DNA of 35,672 bases from assembly GCA_028696875.1 (NCBI GenBank), contig JAQVGF010000001.1:1-35672 (forward strand), given 5' to 3'. The position numbers were made by a program, and so were the translations under genes. This stretch comes from Dysgonamonadaceae bacterium (GTDB lineage: Bacteria > Bacteroidota > Bacteroidia > Bacteroidales > Dysgonomonadaceae). The notes beneath the pieces are model-generated. The model was not told the DNA's origin. It searched no databases and saw only the letters and a program-made list of their open reading frames with translations. Below, one piece after another: positions 25,455 to 35,666 of the stretch (position 1 is the stretch's first letter; every line of letters starts with the position of its first letter).

Positions 25455-25889
25455 ATGAAATCAATTTACAAGAAAGACCGATTAGAAATTTTTACTCCTG
25501 ATATATCGGGCTTGGAGTTGCCTTATGTCGGTGGAGTAGTTGCAGGTTTTCCCTCTCCTGCCGATGACTTTGTGTACGAAAGCATCGATCTTAACAAACT
25601 ACTTGTAAAACATCCTGATGCTACTTTTTATGCCCGCGTTCGCGGTCAATCAATGACATCGGATTTCCATGAAGACGACTTGTTAGTAATAGATCGCAGT
25701 GTTGAATGGGGAGACAATAAAATTGCACTTTGTTACATAGAGAATGAATTCACTCTGAAAAGATTGAAAATAGATGGTGATAAATGTTTTTTAGTCCCAT
25801 CGAACAACGATTTTCCGCTTATCGAGGTAAAAGATGACAACGATGTAATTGTATGGGGAATAGTTACTTATTCCATCAAAAAGCATTGA
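25455..25889 (+). CDS. umuD: UmuD-like S24 (LexA-type) auto-cleaving protein, pol V accessory subunit
   Basis: VVAGFPSP cleavage-site region, RGQSM catalytic Ser, ENEFTLKRL catalytic Lys; adjacent to umuC. Confidence 0.93.
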   Translation: MKSIYKKDRLEIFTPDISGLELPYVGGVVAGFPSPADDFVYESIDLNKLLVKHPDATFYARVRGQSMTSDFHEDDLLVIDRSVEWGDNKIALCYIENEFTLKRLKIDGDKCFLVPSNNDFPLIEVKDDNDVIVWGIVTYSIKKH

Positions 25890-25913
25890 ATTAAATAAGA
25901 TAATTCATCAAAC

Positions 25914-27170
25914 ATGTATGCACTTATAGATTGCAATAATTTTTACGCCTCGTGCGAACGTGTTTTTAATCCGTCGCTCAATGCTATGCCTATTGTGGTG
26001 CTTAGCAACAACGATGGATGTGTAATAGCTCGCAGCAACGAAGCCAAGAAGTTAGGCATCCCTATGGGCGCACCGGCATTTGAATATGAAAGCGTGTTTC
26101 GCACGCATGGCGTAAAAGTGTTTTCTGCCAATTTTCATTTGTATGGCGATATGAGCCGTCGGGTGATGAATATCTTAAGCAATTTCAGCCCTGCTACTGA
26201 GATTTATTCTATCGATGAATGTTTTTTATCATTGCATGGAATAAACAAAGATCATTACAAATATGGTCTGGAAATGGTGGAAAAAGTTATGAAATGGACA
26301 GGCATCCCCATTAGTGTGGGTATAGCTCCTACTAAAGCTTTGGCTAAAGTGGCTAATCGGGTTGCAAAGAAGTTTCCGGAGATAACTCAAAGTGTTCATG
26401 TGATAGATAGCGATGAAAAGAGAATAAAGGCTTTGAAATGGTTGCCTGTAGAAGATGTGTGGGGAATAGGGAGACAAAATGCCAAAAAACTATATGCAAA
26501 TGATGTCCGAAAAGCATATGAATTTACGTTACTGCCCGAAAGTTGGGTGTTGAAACAGATGACCATTGTTGGACTGAGACTCCAAAAAGATTTAAAAGGT
26601 ATTTCTTCCATTGATATGGAATATGAGGAAAAGAAGAAAAGTATCTCCACAACTCGTACTTTTGAGAGAGATTACAATACATTTGATGAAGTGAAAGAAC
26701 GTATCACTACATTTACTTCACTATGTGCACAAAAATTACGCAATCAGAATTCGCTTTGCAACGTTTTGAGCTTATTTGTAGAAACCAATCGGTTTAAAGA
26801 AACCGAAACTTATTACTATAAATCTATCCAATTAAAATTGCCTTTCTCTACATCCTCCACATTAGAGCTGGTTCCGTTTGCAGTAATGGGATTGAAACAC
26901 ATATTTCGGGATCATCTCCATTATAAAAAGGCAGGTGTAACATTATCTCATTTTGTAAATGCCGATTGTTATCAGCCGTCACTTTTCTACAATTCAAACC
27001 CGAAGCATCGGGAACTGATGAAGGTTATGGATAAAATAAATGGAACTTATAAATCAAATGCCATTCGATTGGCAGGAATGGACGAGAAAACGTTTAAAAT
27101 GAGACAAGAGCATCTTTCTCCGGCTTATACTACGAATATTAATGATGTTTTACGTGTTCTTATTGATTGA
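25914..27170 (+). CDS. umuC: UmuC-like Y-family DNA polymerase V catalytic subunit
   Basis: [60 protein letters not shown]. Confidence 0.96.
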
Positions 27171-27391: not shown

Positions 27392-27712
27392 TTAGGTCTT
27401 TTTAACTATCCGAAAAGTTAATTGTTTCCTTGTTAAGTCTCTTGCTGAATGGTGTATGGTTAAAATGTCAATTTGATTATTTTCAACTATTTTATAAATG
27501 ATTCTGCAACTTCCTTCGGTTAGTTCTCTAATATTATCTATGTTAATTTCAGGTACAATCTTTCCTGAACGAGGCTGAGTTTTTAATATCCTTGTCCGTG
27601 TTTTAAGTCTGGTTATCTGAAGTTTTGCATACAGCTTAGAATCTTTTGAGATGTATTCTGCGATATTCTTCAAGTCACCTTTTGCTTGGAATGTCCAATT
27701 TATTCGAACCAT
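27392..27712 (-). CDS. ParE/RelE-superfamily toxin
   Basis: VRINWTFQAKGDLKNIAEYI...SGKIVPE...IRELTEGSCRIIYKI...IDILTIHHSARDL pattern. Confidence 0.88.
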   Translation of the reverse strand: MVRINWTFQAKGDLKNIAEYISKDSKLYAKLQITRLKTRTRILKTQPRSGKIVPEINIDNIRELTEGSCRIIYKIVENNQIDILTIHHSARDLTRKQLTFRIVKKT

Positions 27713-27882
27713 TTTTCGATTTCATTTTCCATTTCGCTCTCTGATATTACTTCTCCATTCTCCGATTGTCGATTCCCAGTTTCAATCTTTTCAATTAAGA
27801 TTAATTTTTCAATTAACTCATCAATTGAAAATTCTTCAGGGAATTTATCAATATGTTCTTTAAGTTTTTCTTTTGTTAGCAT
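27700..27882 (-). CDS. Small acidic antitoxin partner of the ParE-like toxin
   Basis: 60 aa, acidic, overlaps the toxin start by 13 bp on the same strand. Confidence 0.75.
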   Translation of the reverse strand: MLTKEKLKEHIDKFPEEFSIDELIEKLILIEKIETGNRQSENGEVISESEMENEIEKWFE

Positions 27883-29038: not shown

Positions 29039-29716
29039 TCAGCCATTACTACTAATTAATTGCAGTGATTTCTTATTTAGAATTTTCACTTTCCTTCCTT
29101 TCATTTCTATAATATTGTCGTTAATGAACTCCGAAAGCAATCGGTTTATGCTCTCGCGACTGGCATCTACTAAATTTCCGATATCGGATTGAGATATAGG
29201 AAGTGTGAAGGAGTCCGATTCAAAAATATTGTCAGATAAATCAAGAAAAACATCTGCCAGATTGCCGCGCGTTTGTTTTTGGGCACGGTTGGCGCATCGA
29301 TGATAAGATTCTAACTCGCTTTTACTCAATTCCTGAATAATATAGGCTGAAAAGTTATTGTTTTCCTCTAAAACTTTCCTAAACAGATTGATATCGATAA
29401 AACATGCTTCAGAATCCAGTATAGCGGTAACGGAGTATTGGTTTATTTTGTTGCCAAAAGTGGTGGGCAATCCCAAATAAGTGGGAGCTTTAATAAGTCG
29501 CACAATTTGTTCGTTATAAGGTCCGGTGATATGAACTTTCACTAAACCTTCACGCAAGAAAACCACATTAGTGGAAAACATCCCTTGATGTATAATAGTG
29601 GAATCTTTCTTGAATTTCACCACGGCGTGGTTCTTTCCAAGCTGTTCCAACTGACGATCTTTCAGGGTGCGCATCGATTTCATTACGCAGTCACAATTTG
29701 CACATTCTTCTTTCAT
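29039..29716 (-). CDS. Crp/Fnr-family transcriptional regulator with N-terminal Cys cluster
   Basis: CECANCDC N-terminus region (C5,C8,C10), cNMP-binding-like beta-barrel, HTH ISQSDIGNLVDASRESINRLLSEF. Confidence 0.93.
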   Translation of the reverse strand: MKEECANCDCVMKSMRTLKDRQLEQLGKNHAVVKFKKDSTIIHQGMFSTNVVFLREGLVKVHITGPYNEQIVRLIKAPTYLGLPTTFGNKINQYSVTAILDSEACFIDINLFRKVLEENNNFSAYIIQELSKSELESYHRCANRAQKQTRGNLADVFLDLSDNIFESDSFTLPISQSDIGNLVDASRESINRLLSEFINDNIIEMKGRKVKILNKKSLQLISSNG

Positions 29717-29720
29717 ACTA

Positions 29721-29728
29721 CAAAAATA
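29721..29728 (-). promoter_or_regulatory. Candidate -7 promoter element TATTTTTG of the Crp/Fnr gene
   Basis: Plus strand CAAAAATA; exact TAnnTTTG on the minus strand, 4 nt from the start codon. Confidence 0.4.
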
Positions 29729-29736
29729 ATAAAAAA

Positions 29737-29750
29737 GTGATACAAGTCAC
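29737..29750. promoter_or_regulatory. Crp/Fnr-type operator GTGA-N6-TCAC (GTGATACAAGTCAC)
   Basis: Perfect GTGA/TCAC half-sites with 6-nt spacer in the divergent intergenic region between the regulator and the dsrE-like operon. Confidence 0.6.
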
Positions 29751-29845
29751 AATATAATGTATTATTGTTCACGTCACAAAATAAAAATAATAGAGAAATA
29801 ATTCTTTAATTTGCATTATAATAATTCAGAAAATAAAAGACATAT

Positions 29846-30412
29846 ATGGAGAATTTAAAAGAGATAACTATGGAGAAGCTTTTAACGGAACTAAAAACCC
29901 TGAAAGCAAAGACCGACGATATGGAAGATTCCCGTAAAGATCAACTATCCATTGCCATTATATCCGGCGATATGGATAAGATTATGGCGACCATGATTGT
30001 GGCATTAGCGGCTGCCGCCATGGATTCGCAAGTGAAACTGTTTTTCTCTTTTTGGGCAATTGGCGCATTGCGCGATCCTAAAAAACAGGGAAAAGGGAAA
30101 AATTTTATATCGAAAATGTTTGGAATGATGTTACCCAAAGGGCGGAACAAGTTGAAACTGTCTAAATTCAATATGCTTGGTATGGGACCGTTGATGATGA
30201 AAGGATTGATGAAACAACAAAATGTGCTTTCGTTAGACGAAATGTTTAAACAAGCAGGTGAACTCGGAATAGAAATTACTGTTTGCGAAATGACGATGAA
30301 TTTGATGGGTTTCAAAAAGGAAGAGATGATTGATTATCCGCATCTTAGTTATGCAGGAGCCACTACGTTTATTGTGGATGCCGGTGAGAGCAGTATGCAA
30401 TGGATGATTTAA
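29846..30412 (+). CDS. DsrE/DsrF-family protein (DsrE2/peroxiredoxin-like)
   Basis: LSIAIISGDMDKIMATMIVALAAAAMDSQVKLFFSFWAI, ITVCEMTMNLMGFKKEEM (conserved Cys), AGATTFIVDA. Confidence 0.87.
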   Translation: MENLKEITMEKLLTELKTLKAKTDDMEDSRKDQLSIAIISGDMDKIMATMIVALAAAAMDSQVKLFFSFWAIGALRDPKKQGKGKNFISKMFGMMLPKGRNKLKLSKFNMLGMGPLMMKGLMKQQNVLSLDEMFKQAGELGIEITVCEMTMNLMGFKKEEMIDYPHLSYAGATTFIVDAGESSMQWMI

Positions 30413-30505
30413 AACAGATTAGCTTTCCATGCAAATTCGAATTAGAAATAAAGAAACAGAATTTTAAAGATATTAAATTAATTAACTACTAAAAAGTAAA
30501 GTATT

Positions 30506-30757
30506 ATGACAACAGATGCATTAAGTGGAATAACAGTAGCAAAATCAGTAGATGCACGCGGAACAGCATGCCCCGGACCACTCTTAGAAGCTAAGAGAGC
30601 AATTGGAACAATTAATAGTGGTGACGTAATGGAAATTCTTTCGGCAGACGAAGGAACAAAACAAGATATTCCGAAATGGTGCAAGAAGCAAGGTCATGAG
30701 TATCTTGGGAGTGCCGAAGAAAACGGATACTTCAAAGTATATATGAAAAAGAAATAA
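30506..30757 (+). CDS. tusA-like: TusA-family sulfur carrier protein
   Basis: VDARGTACPGPLLEAKRAIGTINSGDVMEILSADEGTKQDIPKWCKKQGHE; CPGP motif. Confidence 0.93.
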   Translation: MTTDALSGITVAKSVDARGTACPGPLLEAKRAIGTINSGDVMEILSADEGTKQDIPKWCKKQGHEYLGSAEENGYFKVYMKKK

Positions 30758-30836
30758 GAATTTCTTGGCGGCGTTTAGTACACAAAAAACAGTGAGCTGA
30801 TACTAAGCAAAGTGAAGAATTTAATCTAATTCTATT

Positions 30837-31247
30837 ATGACCCAATCATTCAACAAAAACGCGAAAATACTCGTGTTTTCCACTGAGAAGATTTCAGATC
30901 CCGCCATTGATATGGCGGGACTGATGAAATTGCATTATCCGCCAACTGTTTATACCATTACTGTGCCTTGTTCAAGCGGTATAAAACCGAGTTGGATAAT
31001 GCATGCTTATGAAAAGGGATTTGATGGTGTTTTTATCGCTGCTGACGGAACCGATTGTGTGTTCGGCGAAACGTGCACCCAAAAAACAGGTAATGTGGTG
31101 AGCATGGCTCATGATCAAATGAAAGAAAAAGAGATTGATCCCGCCCGGTTGCGCATGGCTGCAATTTGTTCAGTTTGCAGTGAAGCATTTGTGAAACAGG
31201 TACGCAGTTTTAACGATTATCTGATAAAGACATTACATGCAGAATAA
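30837..31247 (+). CDS. MvhD/FrhD-like iron-sulfur electron-transfer protein (stand-alone)
   Basis: TVPCSSGIKPSWIMHAYEKGFDGVFIAADGTDCVFGETCTQKTGN...ERLRMAAI-like layout, five or more Cys. Confidence 0.75.
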   Translation: MTQSFNKNAKILVFSTEKISDPAIDMAGLMKLHYPPTVYTITVPCSSGIKPSWIMHAYEKGFDGVFIAADGTDCVFGETCTQKTGNVVSMAHDQMKEKEIDPARLRMAAICSVCSEAFVKQVRSFNDYLIKTLHAE

Positions 31248-31296
31248 AAAAATGTTAGAGCAGCCATTTTGAATTTCTCTTACAAAGACTATTATA

Positions 31297-32601
31297 ATGA
31301 AAGAACCAAAAATTATAGAATACGATGCGCTTGTAATAGGAGCGGGAATTGCCGGTGGCGAAACTGCTCTAAATCTCGCTAACACGGGATACAAGGTATT
31401 ATTGGTAGAAAAAGATCACTCTCTTGGAGGAAAAATGATCTTGTTAAGCAAGGTTTTTCCTACGCTGGATTGTGCTGCTTGTATCACCACACCTAAAGTG
31501 TCGGAAATTGCGCGTCATAAAAACATTACTGTTTTCACAGAAAGTGAAGTAACGAACATAAGCAAAGAGTCTGCAAACAATTTCGTGGCACAGATAACGA
31601 AAAAACCGCGTTATGTGCACGTGGATGATTGCACCGCATGTCAATTATGCGAACAAGCTTGCCCCGTTAGTGTACAAGATGAATATCAATATGGACTTAT
31701 TGGGCGCAAAGCGGCTTATATTCCTTTCAGCATTGCTAATCCTAAAGCGGCTGTTATCGATATAGAAAATTGCACATTGTGTGGTGCTTGCGAACGCGTA
31801 TGCCCAACCCAATGTATCGATTTCACAATGGAAACCGAATACTATGAACTACACACCAAAACTGTGGTATTGGCTACCGGATTCACTCTTTTTGATCCGA
31901 TAGAAATACCACGATACGGATATGGGCGATATAAAAACGTAATCACATCCATGCAAATGGAGCGCGAGATCGCGCCTACGCGTCCATACAACACTATTCT
32001 TCGACCGGGCGATGGGAAAGTGCCCGATAGAATTGCGTATGTACTTTGTGCAGGATCGCGAGACAATACTGTAGGTAATCCCAATTGTTCGCAAATTTGC
32101 TGTATGTATTCTATTAAACAAGCTCAATTGTTAATGGGAGCATTGCCAATGGCGGACATAACCATTTACTATATCAACATCCGTTCCTTTGGAAAAGGAT
32201 TCGAAGAATTCTACCAACAAGCAAAAAGTATGGGAGTGGAGTTTGTGAAAGGAAAGATAGGAGAGATAACCGAGAAAGACAACGGAGACCTTATTTTGAG
32301 GTATGAAGATATTAACGAAGGAGTTGTGAAGGAAGCTGAACACGATATGGCGGTGCTTTCCGTAGGTGTGAGATCCAATCCTACTATTGGCAAAATATTT
32401 AATAATGGTGCGTTAAAATTCGATCCGCTCAATTTTGTGGCACAGGAGGATTTAATGGGCAGCCCGTCAAAAACAAGCATTAAGGGTGTATTTGTAGCCG
32501 GAACGGCTACGGGGCCAATGGATATTCCCGATTCCATTCTTTCGGCCGGATCGGCAGCTTCAGAAGCAATCAGTTATTTAACACAACATCAAGAGGTATG
32601 A
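31297..32601 (+). CDS. qmoA-like: HdrA/QmoA-like flavoprotein with two [4Fe-4S] ferredoxin motifs
   Basis: VIGAGIAGGETALNLANTGYKVLLVEKDHSLGGKM, FPTLDCAACITTPK, CTACQLCEQACP, CTLCGACERVCP, CAGSRD, CSQICCMYSIKQA. Confidence 0.88.
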   Translation: MKEPKIIEYDALVIGAGIAGGETALNLANTGYKVLLVEKDHSLGGKMILLSKVFPTLDCAACITTPKVSEIARHKNITVFTESEVTNISKESANNFVAQITKKPRYVHVDDCTACQLCEQACPVSVQDEYQYGLIGRKAAYIPFSIANPKAAVIDIENCTLCGACERVCPTQCIDFTMETEYYELHTKTVVLATGFTLFDPIEIPRYGYGRYKNVITSMQMEREIAPTRPYNTILRPGDGKVPDRIAYVLCAGSRDNTVGNPNCSQICCMYSIKQAQLLMGALPMADITIYYINIRSFGKGFEEFYQQAKSMGVEFVKGKIGEITEKDNGDLILRYEDINEGVVKEAEHDMAVLSVGVRSNPTIGKIFNNGALKFDPLNFVAQEDLMGSPSKTSIKGVFVAGTATGPMDIPDSILSAGSAASEAISYLTQHQEV

Positions 32602-34322
32602 AAGAAAGAATAGGAGTATATATATGTCATTGCGGCGGCAACATATCCGACTATGTAGATGTGGAAAAAGTACGTCAGGCAGTGCAAGACGATGAAGGAG
32701 TGGTATTGGCTAAAACTACGGTGTTTGCTTGTTCCGACAGTAATCAAACCGATATGGTAAATGACATTAAGGAACACAATTTGGATGGCGTTATTGTCTC
32801 TTCATGTTCGCCGAAACTGCATCTTACTACGTTTCGCGATGTTACTGAACGAGGTGAACTGAACAAATACACGTATGTGCATGCTAATATTCGCGAACAG
32901 GTATCGTGGGCGCATTCCGATGATAAGATAGGAGCAACCGAAAAAGCGATTCATGTTGTAAAAGCGGCAATTGCCAAATCAAGATATGCCAAACCTTTGT
33001 ATCCCAATCAGTTTGAGGCAGAAAAAACCATTGCTGTTATTGGAGCGGGCATCGCAGGTTTAAAAGCAGCTATCTCGCTATCTGATAAGAATTCCAATGT
33101 TGTACTTATTGAAAAGGAAAACAGAGTGGGTGGACACACGGCAACGTGGGGCAGTCTGTTTATGACTGATGAAAGAGGGAGTGAATTAATTGATCGAATA
33201 TACAGCGATTTATCGCAACGCGAGAATGTTTTCATTCTTACCGGATCGGAAGTGATCTCTTCGAAAGGGAGCATTGGCAACTTCACGCTCAAAATAAGAA
33301 AAAAGCCTCAAATAGCAGGCGATCCTGTTGAAACAATGGAGATAAACGTAGGATCGATTGTAGTTGCTACTGGGTTTGAACATTATTCACCGGAAGAAGG
33401 CGAATTCGCATTTGCACAAAATGAAGCTGTTATAACGCTACCTAATTTTAAACAATTGGTAGACGAGTCATCCGGAAAAGTGTTGGAATATAATGGAAAG
33501 AAAATAAAGAATATAGCTTACGTATATTGCGTGGGAAGTCGCCAGACGGAAGGTGAGAATAAATATTGTTCGCGTTACTGCTGTACATCTGTTATTCACA
33601 CAGCCATTGAAACGAAAAAGAAATTCAAAGGCATTCAGAACATCCATCTCAATAGAGGAATCCGAACGTACGGAAAACAGGAGCTTCTCTACGCCGAATC
33701 GCTTCAAATGGGTGATCTCTATCTTCAATTTAACGACGATACACCACCCGAAATACGCAATGAAGGAAAGAAAACGGTTGTAACGGTAAAAGATATTCTT
33801 TCAGCCGGGAGAGAGCTGGAAATGGAAGTAGATTTGGTTGTGCTTGTAACCGGAATGGTTCCTCGCAAAGATCAATCTATTGGGAAAATGCTTAAATTAC
33901 CCAAAGGACGTGATAAATTCTACAACGAAGTACACATGAAATTACGCCCTGTGGAAACCGTCATAGATGGTATAACCATTGCAGGAACATGTCAAGGACC
34001 AAAAAACATTAGTGAGTCTGTGAACTCGGCACTATCGGCTGCCACCAAATCATTTTCTTATGTCAGCAAAGGAACGCTCGAAACGGAACCTATTGTGGCA
34101 GAAGTGGATCATGAAGTGTGCTCGTGGTGCGGAAAATGTGCCGAGGCGTGTCCTTTTGATGCGATAGAGAAACAGGAAGTGAATGGCAAAGAAGTTGCTG
34201 TTATAAATACGTCGGTATGTAAAGGTTGCGGAATGTGCACTCCCGTTTGTCCCGTAGACGCCATCGATCTGATTGGCTACACCAGCGAAGAAATGAAGAG
34301 TATGATTGAAGTATTGGCTTAA
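32598..34322 (+). CDS. qmoB-like: HdrA/QmoB-like flavoprotein with C-terminal two [4Fe-4S] ferredoxin motifs
   Basis: GVYICHCGGNISDYVD, VIGAGIAGLKAAISLSDK, YCVGSRQ, CSRYCCTSVIHTA, CSWCGKCAEACP, CKGCGMCTPVCP; overlaps previous stop by 4 nt. Confidence 0.88.
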   Translation: MKERIGVYICHCGGNISDYVDVEKVRQAVQDDEGVVLAKTTVFACSDSNQTDMVNDIKEHNLDGVIVSSCSPKLHLTTFRDVTERGELNKYTYVHANIREQVSWAHSDDKIGATEKAIHVVKAAIAKSRYAKPLYPNQFEAEKTIAVIGAGIAGLKAAISLSDKNSNVVLIEKENRVGGHTATWGSLFMTDERGSELIDRIYSDLSQRENVFILTGSEVISSKGSIGNFTLKIRKKPQIAGDPVETMEINVGSIVVATGFEHYSPEEGEFAFAQNEAVITLPNFKQLVDESSGKVLEYNGKKIKNIAYVYCVGSRQTEGENKYCSRYCCTSVIHTAIETKKKFKGIQNIHLNRGIRTYGKQELLYAESLQMGDLYLQFNDDTPPEIRNEGKKTVVTVKDILSAGRELEMEVDLVVLVTGMVPRKDQSIGKMLKLPKGRDKFYNEVHMKLRPVETVIDGITIAGTCQGPKNISESVNSALSAATKSFSYVSKGTLETEPIVAEVDHEVCSWCGKCAEACPFDAIEKQEVNGKEVAVINTSVCKGCGMCTPVCPVDAIDLIGYTSEEMKSMIEVLA

Positions 34323-34326
34323 AATT

Positions 34327-34605
34327 ATGAAAGTAGAAGCAAGAAAAACAGCAAAATATCTGCGGGACAAACAAGGCGTTCCCGAAAAAGCGAAAGAGGA
34401 ACTGAAGGAATATAATCGAATAAAAAAGGCAATTACCGGTGCGTTGAAAGACGAAGAACTAACAATTGCTCAATTATCGGAGAAGCTTCAAATGCCCAAA
34501 CCGGAGGTTACGTATTATCTTTTGTCGTTGGTGAAATATGGTATTGTAGCAATTGGAGAAATTGACGATATGGATGAGTATTACTCTTATAAATTAGTGA
34601 AATAA
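34327..34605 (+). CDS. Small winged-helix/HTH-like protein inside the Qmo-like operon
   Basis: LTIAQLSEKLQMPKPEVTYYLLSLVKYGIVAIGEID; ATG 34327 preferred over track start 34306; TAATG overlap with next gene. Confidence 0.7.
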   Translation: MKVEARKTAKYLRDKQGVPEKAKEELKEYNRIKKAITGALKDEELTIAQLSEKLQMPKPEVTYYLLSLVKYGIVAIGEIDDMDEYYSYKLVK

Positions 34606-35666
34606 TGGCAACAAGAATAAACCCAAGATTTTCGGAAGAGTTAAAAAAATACGGTGCAATTAATATGAATGCATGTTACAATTGTGGAACATGTACTGCC
34701 GTATGTTCATTGTCAACAACAGACGATTCGTTTCCGCGCGAAATGGTGCGTTTAAGCGTTCTGGGACTTGAAGACGATATCAAAACATCGCTCAAGCCGT
34801 GGGAGTGTTATTATTGTGGAGAGTGCACAACCAATTGTCCACAAACAGCAAATCCGGGCGAACTGATGATGTCGCTCCGCAGATGGTTAACTGCCAAATA
34901 CGATTGGACCGGACTTTCCGGACTGTTGTACAAGTCGATGTCACTAACTCTTTTTGCAATGCTATTAGTTTTTGCCGGAGTATTATACTTCGCCAATTCG
35001 GTTAATTTCAATTTGGAACAGATGCTTCACACCGGACATATTTTCGAGATGGTTGCTATTGGCACAATTATGTTTGTGATATTTGTTCCCAATTTGCTAC
35101 GCATGTGGAACTTTACTGTGCTCAAAGCAGGCGTGAAAGCGCCTTTTAAAACGTATGTTACAGCATTGAGCGACCTTTTTGTACATATGTTTACTCAAAA
35201 GCGATCAAAAGATTGTGATGAAGATGATTCTTTCAGATGGTTAGAACACTTTATACTTGTACTTTCGTACTTGTCGTTGCTCTTTACCACCGTTTTTCTG
35301 AATTGGTTTGGCACGGGAAGCATACTTATTATCATTTTTGGTTACATCGTTAGTTTTTTGATTTTTGTGGTTACCGTAGATTTTGTGAGTAGTCGCATGA
35401 AGAAGAAAAAATCATTGAATAAATTTTCCCAGCCGTCGGATTGGTTTTTTGTAATCTGGCTGTTGTTGATGGGAATCACAGCTTTTATGGTACGCTTGTT
35501 CATCGATCTCAACATTCTTGAATCAAACAAATGGATGTATATTTTGCATCTTACGGTGTTAGCACAATGGGCGCTTATTATTGTTCCATTTGGAAAATGG
35601 ACGCATTTCTTATATCGCTCGTTTGCAATGTATTTTTCGAAAGTAAAAAGTATGGCATTAGAATAG
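34605..35666 (+). CDS. qmoC-like: QmoC-like protein: HdrC-like [4Fe-4S] domain fused to HdrE-like membrane cytochrome b domain
   Basis: CYNCGTCTAVCSLS and CYYCGECTTNCPQTANPGE motifs, then multiple TM helices with histidines WLEHFIL, LHLTVL, KWTHFLYR. Confidence 0.9.
   Translation: MATRINPRFSEELKKYGAINMNACYNCGTCTAVCSLSTTDDSFPREMVRLSVLGLEDDIKTSLKPWECYYCGECTTNCPQTANPGELMMSLRRWLTAKYDWTGLSGLLYKSMSLTLFAMLLVFAGVLYFANSVNFNLEQMLHTGHIFEMVAIGTIMFVIFVPNLLRMWNFTVLKAGVKAPFKTYVTALSDLFVHMFTQKRSKDCDEDDSFRWLEHFILVLSYLSLLFTTVFLNWFGTGSILIIIFGYIVSFLIFVVTVDFVSSRMKKKKSLNKFSQPSDWFFVIWLLLMGITAFMVRLFIDLNILESNKWMYILHLTVLAQWALIIVPFGKWTHFLYRSFAMYFSKVKSMALE

Follow-up and report, generated by a model that had tools for sequence, protein, structure and literature searches.

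A conserved DsrE2-TusA-FlpD-Qmo-like operon in Bacteroidota, a candidate menaquinone-linked sulfane-sulfur reductase system

The window analysed here is a stretch of 35,672 nucleotides (positions 1 to 35,672 of contig JAQVGF010000001.1, assembly GCA_028696875.1) from a Dysgonamonadaceae bacterium. At its downstream end lie seven plus-strand open reading frames (29846-35666), which encode the sulfur carriers DsrE2 and TusA, an FlpD/MvhD-like protein, two HdrA-type flavoproteins (subunits A and B), a small winged-helix protein and an HdrC/QmoC-type membrane subunit (subunit C). Sequence comparison suggests, with a probability that we put at about 0.58, that the operon specifies a sulfane-sulfur (persulfide/polysulfide) reductase system linked to menaquinone. 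It is probably an undescribed route by which anaerobic Bacteroidota reduce sulfur to H2S. Arguing for this reading are the constancy of TusA in the operon, a CxxC motif in the FlpD-like subunit, the lack of the usual sulfur reductases in two complete carrier genomes (G024 and G030), the fusion of TusA and DsrE2 to an NSR-type flavoprotein in relatives that have no operon, the exchangeable partner of FlpD, and the cysteines and heme histidines kept in subunit C. Some fermentative Bacteroidota reduce elemental sulfur (S0). In the literature, we found neither a description of this operon nor one of the enzyme for S0 reduction in Petrimonas. A cockroach-gut study naming both QmoABC and Bacteroidota proved unrelated.

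Conservation of the operon and exchange of its partners

A preliminary description of the window had reported seven tightly spaced genes on one strand, among them DsrE-like and TusA (CPGP) proteins. The shared strand and both identities hold, since all open frames are on the plus strand and the domain matches agree (Table 1). The spacing holds in part. Along the operon the gaps are 93, 79, 49, -4, -17 and -1 bp, so that the last four genes overlap and the first three are only loosely spaced. The position first given as the operon start, 29039, belongs instead to a divergent gene for a Crp/Fnr-family regulator on the minus strand.

The survey of relatives covered Bacteroidota genomes. The order divergent Crp/Fnr gene, then DsrE2-TusA-FlpD-A-B-winged helix-C, recurs in about 20 loci picked by matches to QmoB and QmoC, while the flanking genes vary. 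Among 20 further loci, mostly from other families and picked by QmoC alone, 19 carry TusA, FlpD, A, B, the winged helix and C, and one ends at a contig edge. A gene order recurring in about 40 Bacteroidales genomes indicates that the arrangement is not due to chance. The link of TusA and DsrE to these genes, as first described, is thereby borne out: no complete locus lacks TusA (about 40 genomes), and most have a DsrE protein. DsrE2 is the usual form, yet it is sometimes missing or substituted by another DsrE protein. The QmoC alignment was matched at 1e-40 or better by 89 of the 343 genomes of the order, for part of which the neighbourhoods were examined, and 41 of the matches reached at least 540 bits, the range of the operon type. 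Among relatives, the operon is patchy. Family f52, which belongs to another class of the phylum, has TusA-FlpD-A-B-winged helix-C accompanied by a downstream DsrE protein, and its A, B and C are 52%, 40% and 29% identical to those of the window.

Related QmoC-HdrA-FlpD sets from the same phylum adjoin genes that sequence motifs identify as [NiFe]-hydrogenase subunits (L120 in G319; L063/L124 in G057), and they resemble a hydrogenase module linked to quinone. The HdrA parts of L120 are seemingly fused into one protein (1490 aa), and further related sets occur in L121-L123. DsrE2-TusA thus occupies the place held by hydrogenase in the related sets, which indicates that the partner of FlpD is exchangeable. 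A plasmid search gave distant HdrA matches only, the better one being an HdrB-HdrC-HdrA-FlpD locus in Ilyobacter.

The Crp/Fnr gene is kept beside the operon, with C5, C8 and C105 present in 22 of 22 aligned rows and C141 in 20 of 22. Its product is probably a dedicated local regulator of the operon, as its conserved position suggests. An operator-like palindrome of the CRP/FNR type is kept between regulator and operon in nearly all relatives' loci. With a pattern derived from the palindrome, the operon was the sole genome-wide match in G007, G024 and G030, and there was none in Petrimonas mucosa; as the pattern was derived from these same loci, it describes specificity and is no independent test. 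A promoter-like element of the TAATTTG type recurs in most of the aligned intergenic regions.

Subunits and their conserved residues

One departure from known relatives lies in the FlpD-like subunit. Solved MvhD and hydrogenase-linked FlpD proteins carry CNWC after the first strand and C(H)xGDC after the third, with one solved relative varying. All FlpD proteins of the sulfur operon lack CNWC and instead have CS[VI]C near the C-terminus (27/27 rows, two of them from the same genome, plus 19/19 further loci, among them L181 with the CSIC variant). In the f52 family the other conserved cysteines are lost as well and only CTVC is kept. The MvhD-like assignment is therefore right for the family, although the usual MvhD cysteine pattern is missing. 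This swap of cysteines points to dithiol or persulfide handling.

Conserved cysteines are also found in the sulfur carriers. Cys147 of DsrE2 is invariant (26/26 aligned rows), and so are Cys22, part of the CPGP motif, and Cys59 of TusA (26/26). Of 15 genomes, 13 have exactly one DsrE2, which accompanies the operon or the remnant of it, or else lies within a long flavoprotein fusion. Loci of the Paludibacter type have an extra DsrE-family protein between qmoA and qmoB, with a lipoprotein-like signal and a conserved YACPTC motif.

Both flavoproteins have HdrA2 as their best NCBIfam match, at about 473 bits each. Subunit A shows the HdrA-type motifs FPTLDCxxC and FGKG(Y/F)EE, whereas the QmoA linked to Apr has FPKLCPPxC; the earlier labels QmoA and QmoB are thus correct as to two HdrA-type flavoproteins, but not as to the canonical Qmo proteins. 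In trees of A, B and C, the operon set and Apr-linked Qmo split at 100/100, with references from Bacteroidota and Chlorobia only and a midpoint root. The operon's QmoABC therefore does not nest within the canonical Qmo of these references. In a sister clade, a GltD-like NAD(P)H domain (PF14691, PF07992) is inserted into subunit A, which in this long form has 914-942 aa; the short form of the window lacks the domain.

The small protein noted earlier as a winged helix-turn-helix is present, with weak matches to ArsR, IclR and TrmB families, and its ATG start at 34327 suits the relatives better than the TTG at 34306. In five loci of the sister clade (L048, L050, L057, L061 and L066) this domain lies inside the QmoB frame, and the protein is therefore probably a subunit of the complex; a role as a plain transcription factor is unlikely for the same reason. 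Subunit C scores 142 bits against the NCBIfam qmoC model NF038018, below its cut-off of 300. Both CxxCxxCxxxC motifs, His215, His315 and His334 are conserved, in Apr-linked QmoC too. L066 (G048), L179, L180 and L181 have the same type of operon with a QmoC closer to the f52 type, which suggests that subunit C may have been exchanged.

Sulfur metabolism of the carriers and rival explanations

The window genome is a draft, 86% complete, with 2.35 Mb spread over 258 contigs. Absences there are weak for this reason, and they were also checked in more complete relatives. No gene for aprA was found in 14 of the 15 operon genomes, the window genome included. The sole exception, G043, carries aprBA-qmoABC apart from the operon, on another contig, and both systems therefore coexist there. 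The search for dsrA was negative in all 15. HdrB (PF02754) was found neither in the operon nor in the window genome, and complete G030 has only a 946-aa fusion protein with this domain. The lack of apr, dsr and HdrB, first reported for the window, thus extends to its draft genome. Molybdopterin oxidoreductases are absent from the operon and from complete G024 and G030; Psr and Phs were covered only through this domain, and no search was aimed at Sat, SQR or PsrA itself. The best match to an NSR-type protein in G024 and G030 has 117 bits, compared with 372-501 bits in the genomes with long fusions. Reduction of the Psr, Phs or NSR type is thus unlikely in these two carriers, and the question narrows there to a single locus.

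G024, a complete genome presumed to be that of Petrimonas sp. IBARAKI, carries the operon. This strain was isolated from black colonies with sulfide, and by 16S it is 99% identical to P. sulfuriphila, a species that forms H2S from S0 (PMC5940944). In three relatives lacking the operon, the sole DsrE2 lies within a CoADR-rhodanese-TusA-DsrE2 fusion of about 820 aa (L210 in G008, L211 in G009, L183 in G023), its DsrE2 part being 35-36% identical to that of the window. In Thermotoga, an NSR of this general type acts as a polysulfide reductase (PMC9431562). Like such NSR/CoADR-type enzymes, the operon would let TusA and DsrE2 feed a flavoprotein, likely with the same chemistry, and the two arrangements alternate among relatives. 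The fusion, however, is a single protein with no QmoC-like membrane part, whereas the partner in the operon is an HdrA/QmoC complex.

In the proposed mechanism, DsrE2 and TusA would gather cytoplasmic sulfane sulfur as protein persulfide, and TusA would pass it to the CxxC of FlpD, where H2S would be released. The oxidised FlpD site would be re-reduced via the two HdrA-type flavoproteins, with menaquinol electrons entering through the heme/HdrC subunit C, probably along with a low-potential co-donor. With menaquinone at about -74 mV and S0/HS- at about -270 mV, menaquinol is too oxidising to be a likely sole donor. In the sister clade, the NAD(P)H domain within subunit A could be the low-potential donor. 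The winged-helix protein would be a structural part of subunit B. A bolder version, which we put forward tentatively and at less than even odds, is that of a new anaerobic respiration, widespread in fermentative Bacteroidota, in which a cytoplasm-facing quinone-linked HdrA complex reduces TusA-SSH at a repurposed MvhD subunit, with CxxC in place of the family's cluster motif, and ties sulfur reduction to the quinone pool and a low-potential donor.

Several points weigh against a sulfane-sulfur reductase. The identity of G024 with IBARAKI is presumptive, and S0 reduction has been documented in P. sulfuriphila BN3 but not in IBARAKI. P. mucosa (presumed for G036) keeps DsrE2 and TusA without FlpD-QmoABC. 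Rather than forming a dithiol, the cysteines of FlpD could be ligands of a cluster; in the Bacteroidales proteins, C45, C74 and C80 could join the CxxC in one cluster, and an AlphaFold model of low confidence (mean pLDDT 61) cannot decide between the two. A sulfur importer of the YedE type (PF04143) was found in none of the eight genomes examined. The sole molybdopterin enzyme found in the window genome is the alpha subunit of a nitrate reductase (narG; 1133 bits; contig 138:11420-13600), which makes an oxidative direction possible there. Beyond the linkage of the genes, we infer each step from sequence comparison: that sulfur is the substrate and is reduced, how the electrons travel, and what happens to the persulfide.

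The oxidative direction, in which electrons from TusA/DsrE2 persulfide would flow to menaquinone, either to dispose of persulfide or sulfide or to respire nitrate or oxygen, is rather unlikely. Such a flow would be downhill, sulfur oxidisers run Qmo in the oxidative sense, and sulfur oxidation typically involves TusA/DsrE relays (PMC10504309). Nevertheless, no HdrB-based sHdr, Dsr or Apr was found that could oxidise the sulfur further, narG of the window genome has no molybdopterin nitrate reductase counterpart in the complete carriers G024 and G030, and among the characterised relatives of a carrier the closest reduces S0. It is also unlikely, and somewhat more so, that the complex reduces another disulfide or acceptor, with TusA and DsrE2 serving only biosynthetic sulfur transfer (tRNA thiolation, Fe-S or cofactor assembly) or persulfide homeostasis. 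TusA does have biosynthetic roles in other bacteria, and the DsrE2-TusA pair of P. mucosa, which persists alone, would fit. However, the fixed presence of TusA in a unit that is patchy among relatives is unlike housekeeping, and two HdrA subunits with a QmoC suit energy metabolism better.

A confurcation or bifurcation machine that mainly supplies menaquinone with electrons from NAD(P)H/ferredoxin, and in which sulfur has a minor or regulatory part, would agree with the NAD(P)H domain of the long subunit A and with the relatives linked to [NiFe] hydrogenase. It is very improbable, as the short form of the window lacks this domain and the link to DsrE/TusA is common to both forms. For a canonical Qmo serving APS reductase, placed beside sulfur-transfer genes by chance, there speaks the homology of QmoC; its chance is close to nil given the genomes without aprA, the separate Apr-linked Qmo of the remaining one, the separate clades and the different QmoA motif, and for complete G024 and G030, which have no aprA, it is refuted.

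Like type I QmoABC of sulfate reducers and Chlorobi, the operon combines two HdrA-like flavoproteins with a membrane subunit of the HdrC-heme b kind; unlike it, it has no Apr partner, includes TusA, FlpD and winged-helix genes as fixed members and forms a separate clade. Type II QmoAB(C), described as closer to HdrA, also occurs in genomes without Apr and Dsr, and its function is open (PMC10504309); compared by description only, the operon, with its HdrA motif and HdrA2 best match, may or may not belong to it. With HdrABC-MvhAGD of methanogens and the FlpD/MvhD-linked HdrA complexes it shares the HdrA motif and an FlpD/MvhD-family subunit, but it has no HdrB or hydrogenase, a CxxC in place of CNWC, and a membrane heme subunit. 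The sHdr sulfur-oxidation system (hdrC1B1A-hyp-hdrC2B2 with TusA/DsrE) likewise combines an HdrA-type protein with TusA and DsrE proteins; here HdrB1/B2 are missing from operon and window genome, QmoC stands instead, and the hosts are fermenters rather than sulfur oxidisers. The YTD cluster of sulfur disproportionators also joins tusA with a dsrE gene, but its description has no such redox complex (PMC12998232), and yedE is missing as said. Psr/Phs-type sulfur respiration would be similar in its quinone-linked sulfur reduction and different in its molybdopterin enzyme, while the sulfur carriers of the operon are cytoplasmic. The results for aprA, HdrB, dsrA and yedE, together with the trees and the QmoA motif, led us to reject Apr-linked Qmo, sHdr, Dsr and YTD as identities of the operon.

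If true, the proposed function extends the known sulfur-reducing enzymes by a persulfide reductase linked to quinone and provides a candidate role for at least some of the Qmo/HdrA complexes found without apr or dsr. In digesters and habitats of that kind, the operon may then give rise to H2S from a source that is overlooked by the usual marker genes.

Feature coordinates and neighbouring genes

Table 1. Features of the operon and its upstream region, with variants in related loci (coordinates refer to the window unless a locus is named)
Feature	Position	Strand	Evidence
Crp/Fnr-family regulator, divergent	29039-29716	-	PF13545, PF00027
Operator-like CRP/FNR-type palindrome GTGATACAAGTCACA	29737-29751	no strand	conservation; binding putative
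Putative Bacteroidetes-type promoter element TAATTTG (TAnnTTTG)	29807-29813	+	read from sequence
DsrE2 sulfur-carrier protein	29846-30412	+	PF13686 1.2e-41
TusA sulfur-carrier protein	30506-30757	+	PF01206 2.6e-24, CPGP
FlpD/MvhD-like subunit, CxxC (C111-S-V-C114) replacing MvhD CNWC	30837-31247	+	PF02662 1e-26
HdrA-type flavoprotein, QmoA-like (subunit A)	31297-32601	+	NF040770 473 bits; motif FPTLDCAACITTPK
HdrA-type flavoprotein, QmoB-like (subunit B), C-terminal double 4Fe-4S domain	32598-34322	+	NF040770 473 bits; PF14697; solved HdrA relatives
Winged-helix protein	34327-34605 (listed open reading frame 34306-34605, TTG start)	+	weak PF01022/PF09339 hits
HdrC/QmoC-type membrane subunit (subunit C), two 4Fe-4S motifs, likely heme-b membrane domain	34605-35666	+	NF038018 142 bits
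Extra DsrE-family lipoprotein-like gene	L041:1981-2478; L045:9479-9976; L046:3822-4298		
Loci with long subunit A	L048, L050, L057, L061, L066; also L178-L180		

The window is part of a contig of 53,059 bases, on which genes for DnaB, EF-G and ribosomal proteins follow further downstream, and the operon thus lies in an ordinary chromosomal setting. In P. mucosa, the DsrE2-TusA remnant (L209, G036 contig 1:1190000-1207000, 6810-9683) has kept the promoter-like element and lost the Crp/Fnr gene and the palindrome, and a DDE-transposase gene adjoins it; no report on a sulfur phenotype of this species was found in the literature. In the window, the regulator gene is adjoined by a gene for a DUF892 protein (PF05974; 28478-28891, minus strand), with no match beside the operon in the relatives compared. 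Further upstream, and judged by sequence alone, two small overlapping frames (27392-27882, minus strand) resemble a ParE/RelE-type toxin and an upstream antitoxin, and a umuD/lexA-like and umuC-like pair (25455-27170) appears to correspond to the SOS neighbours named in the preliminary description.

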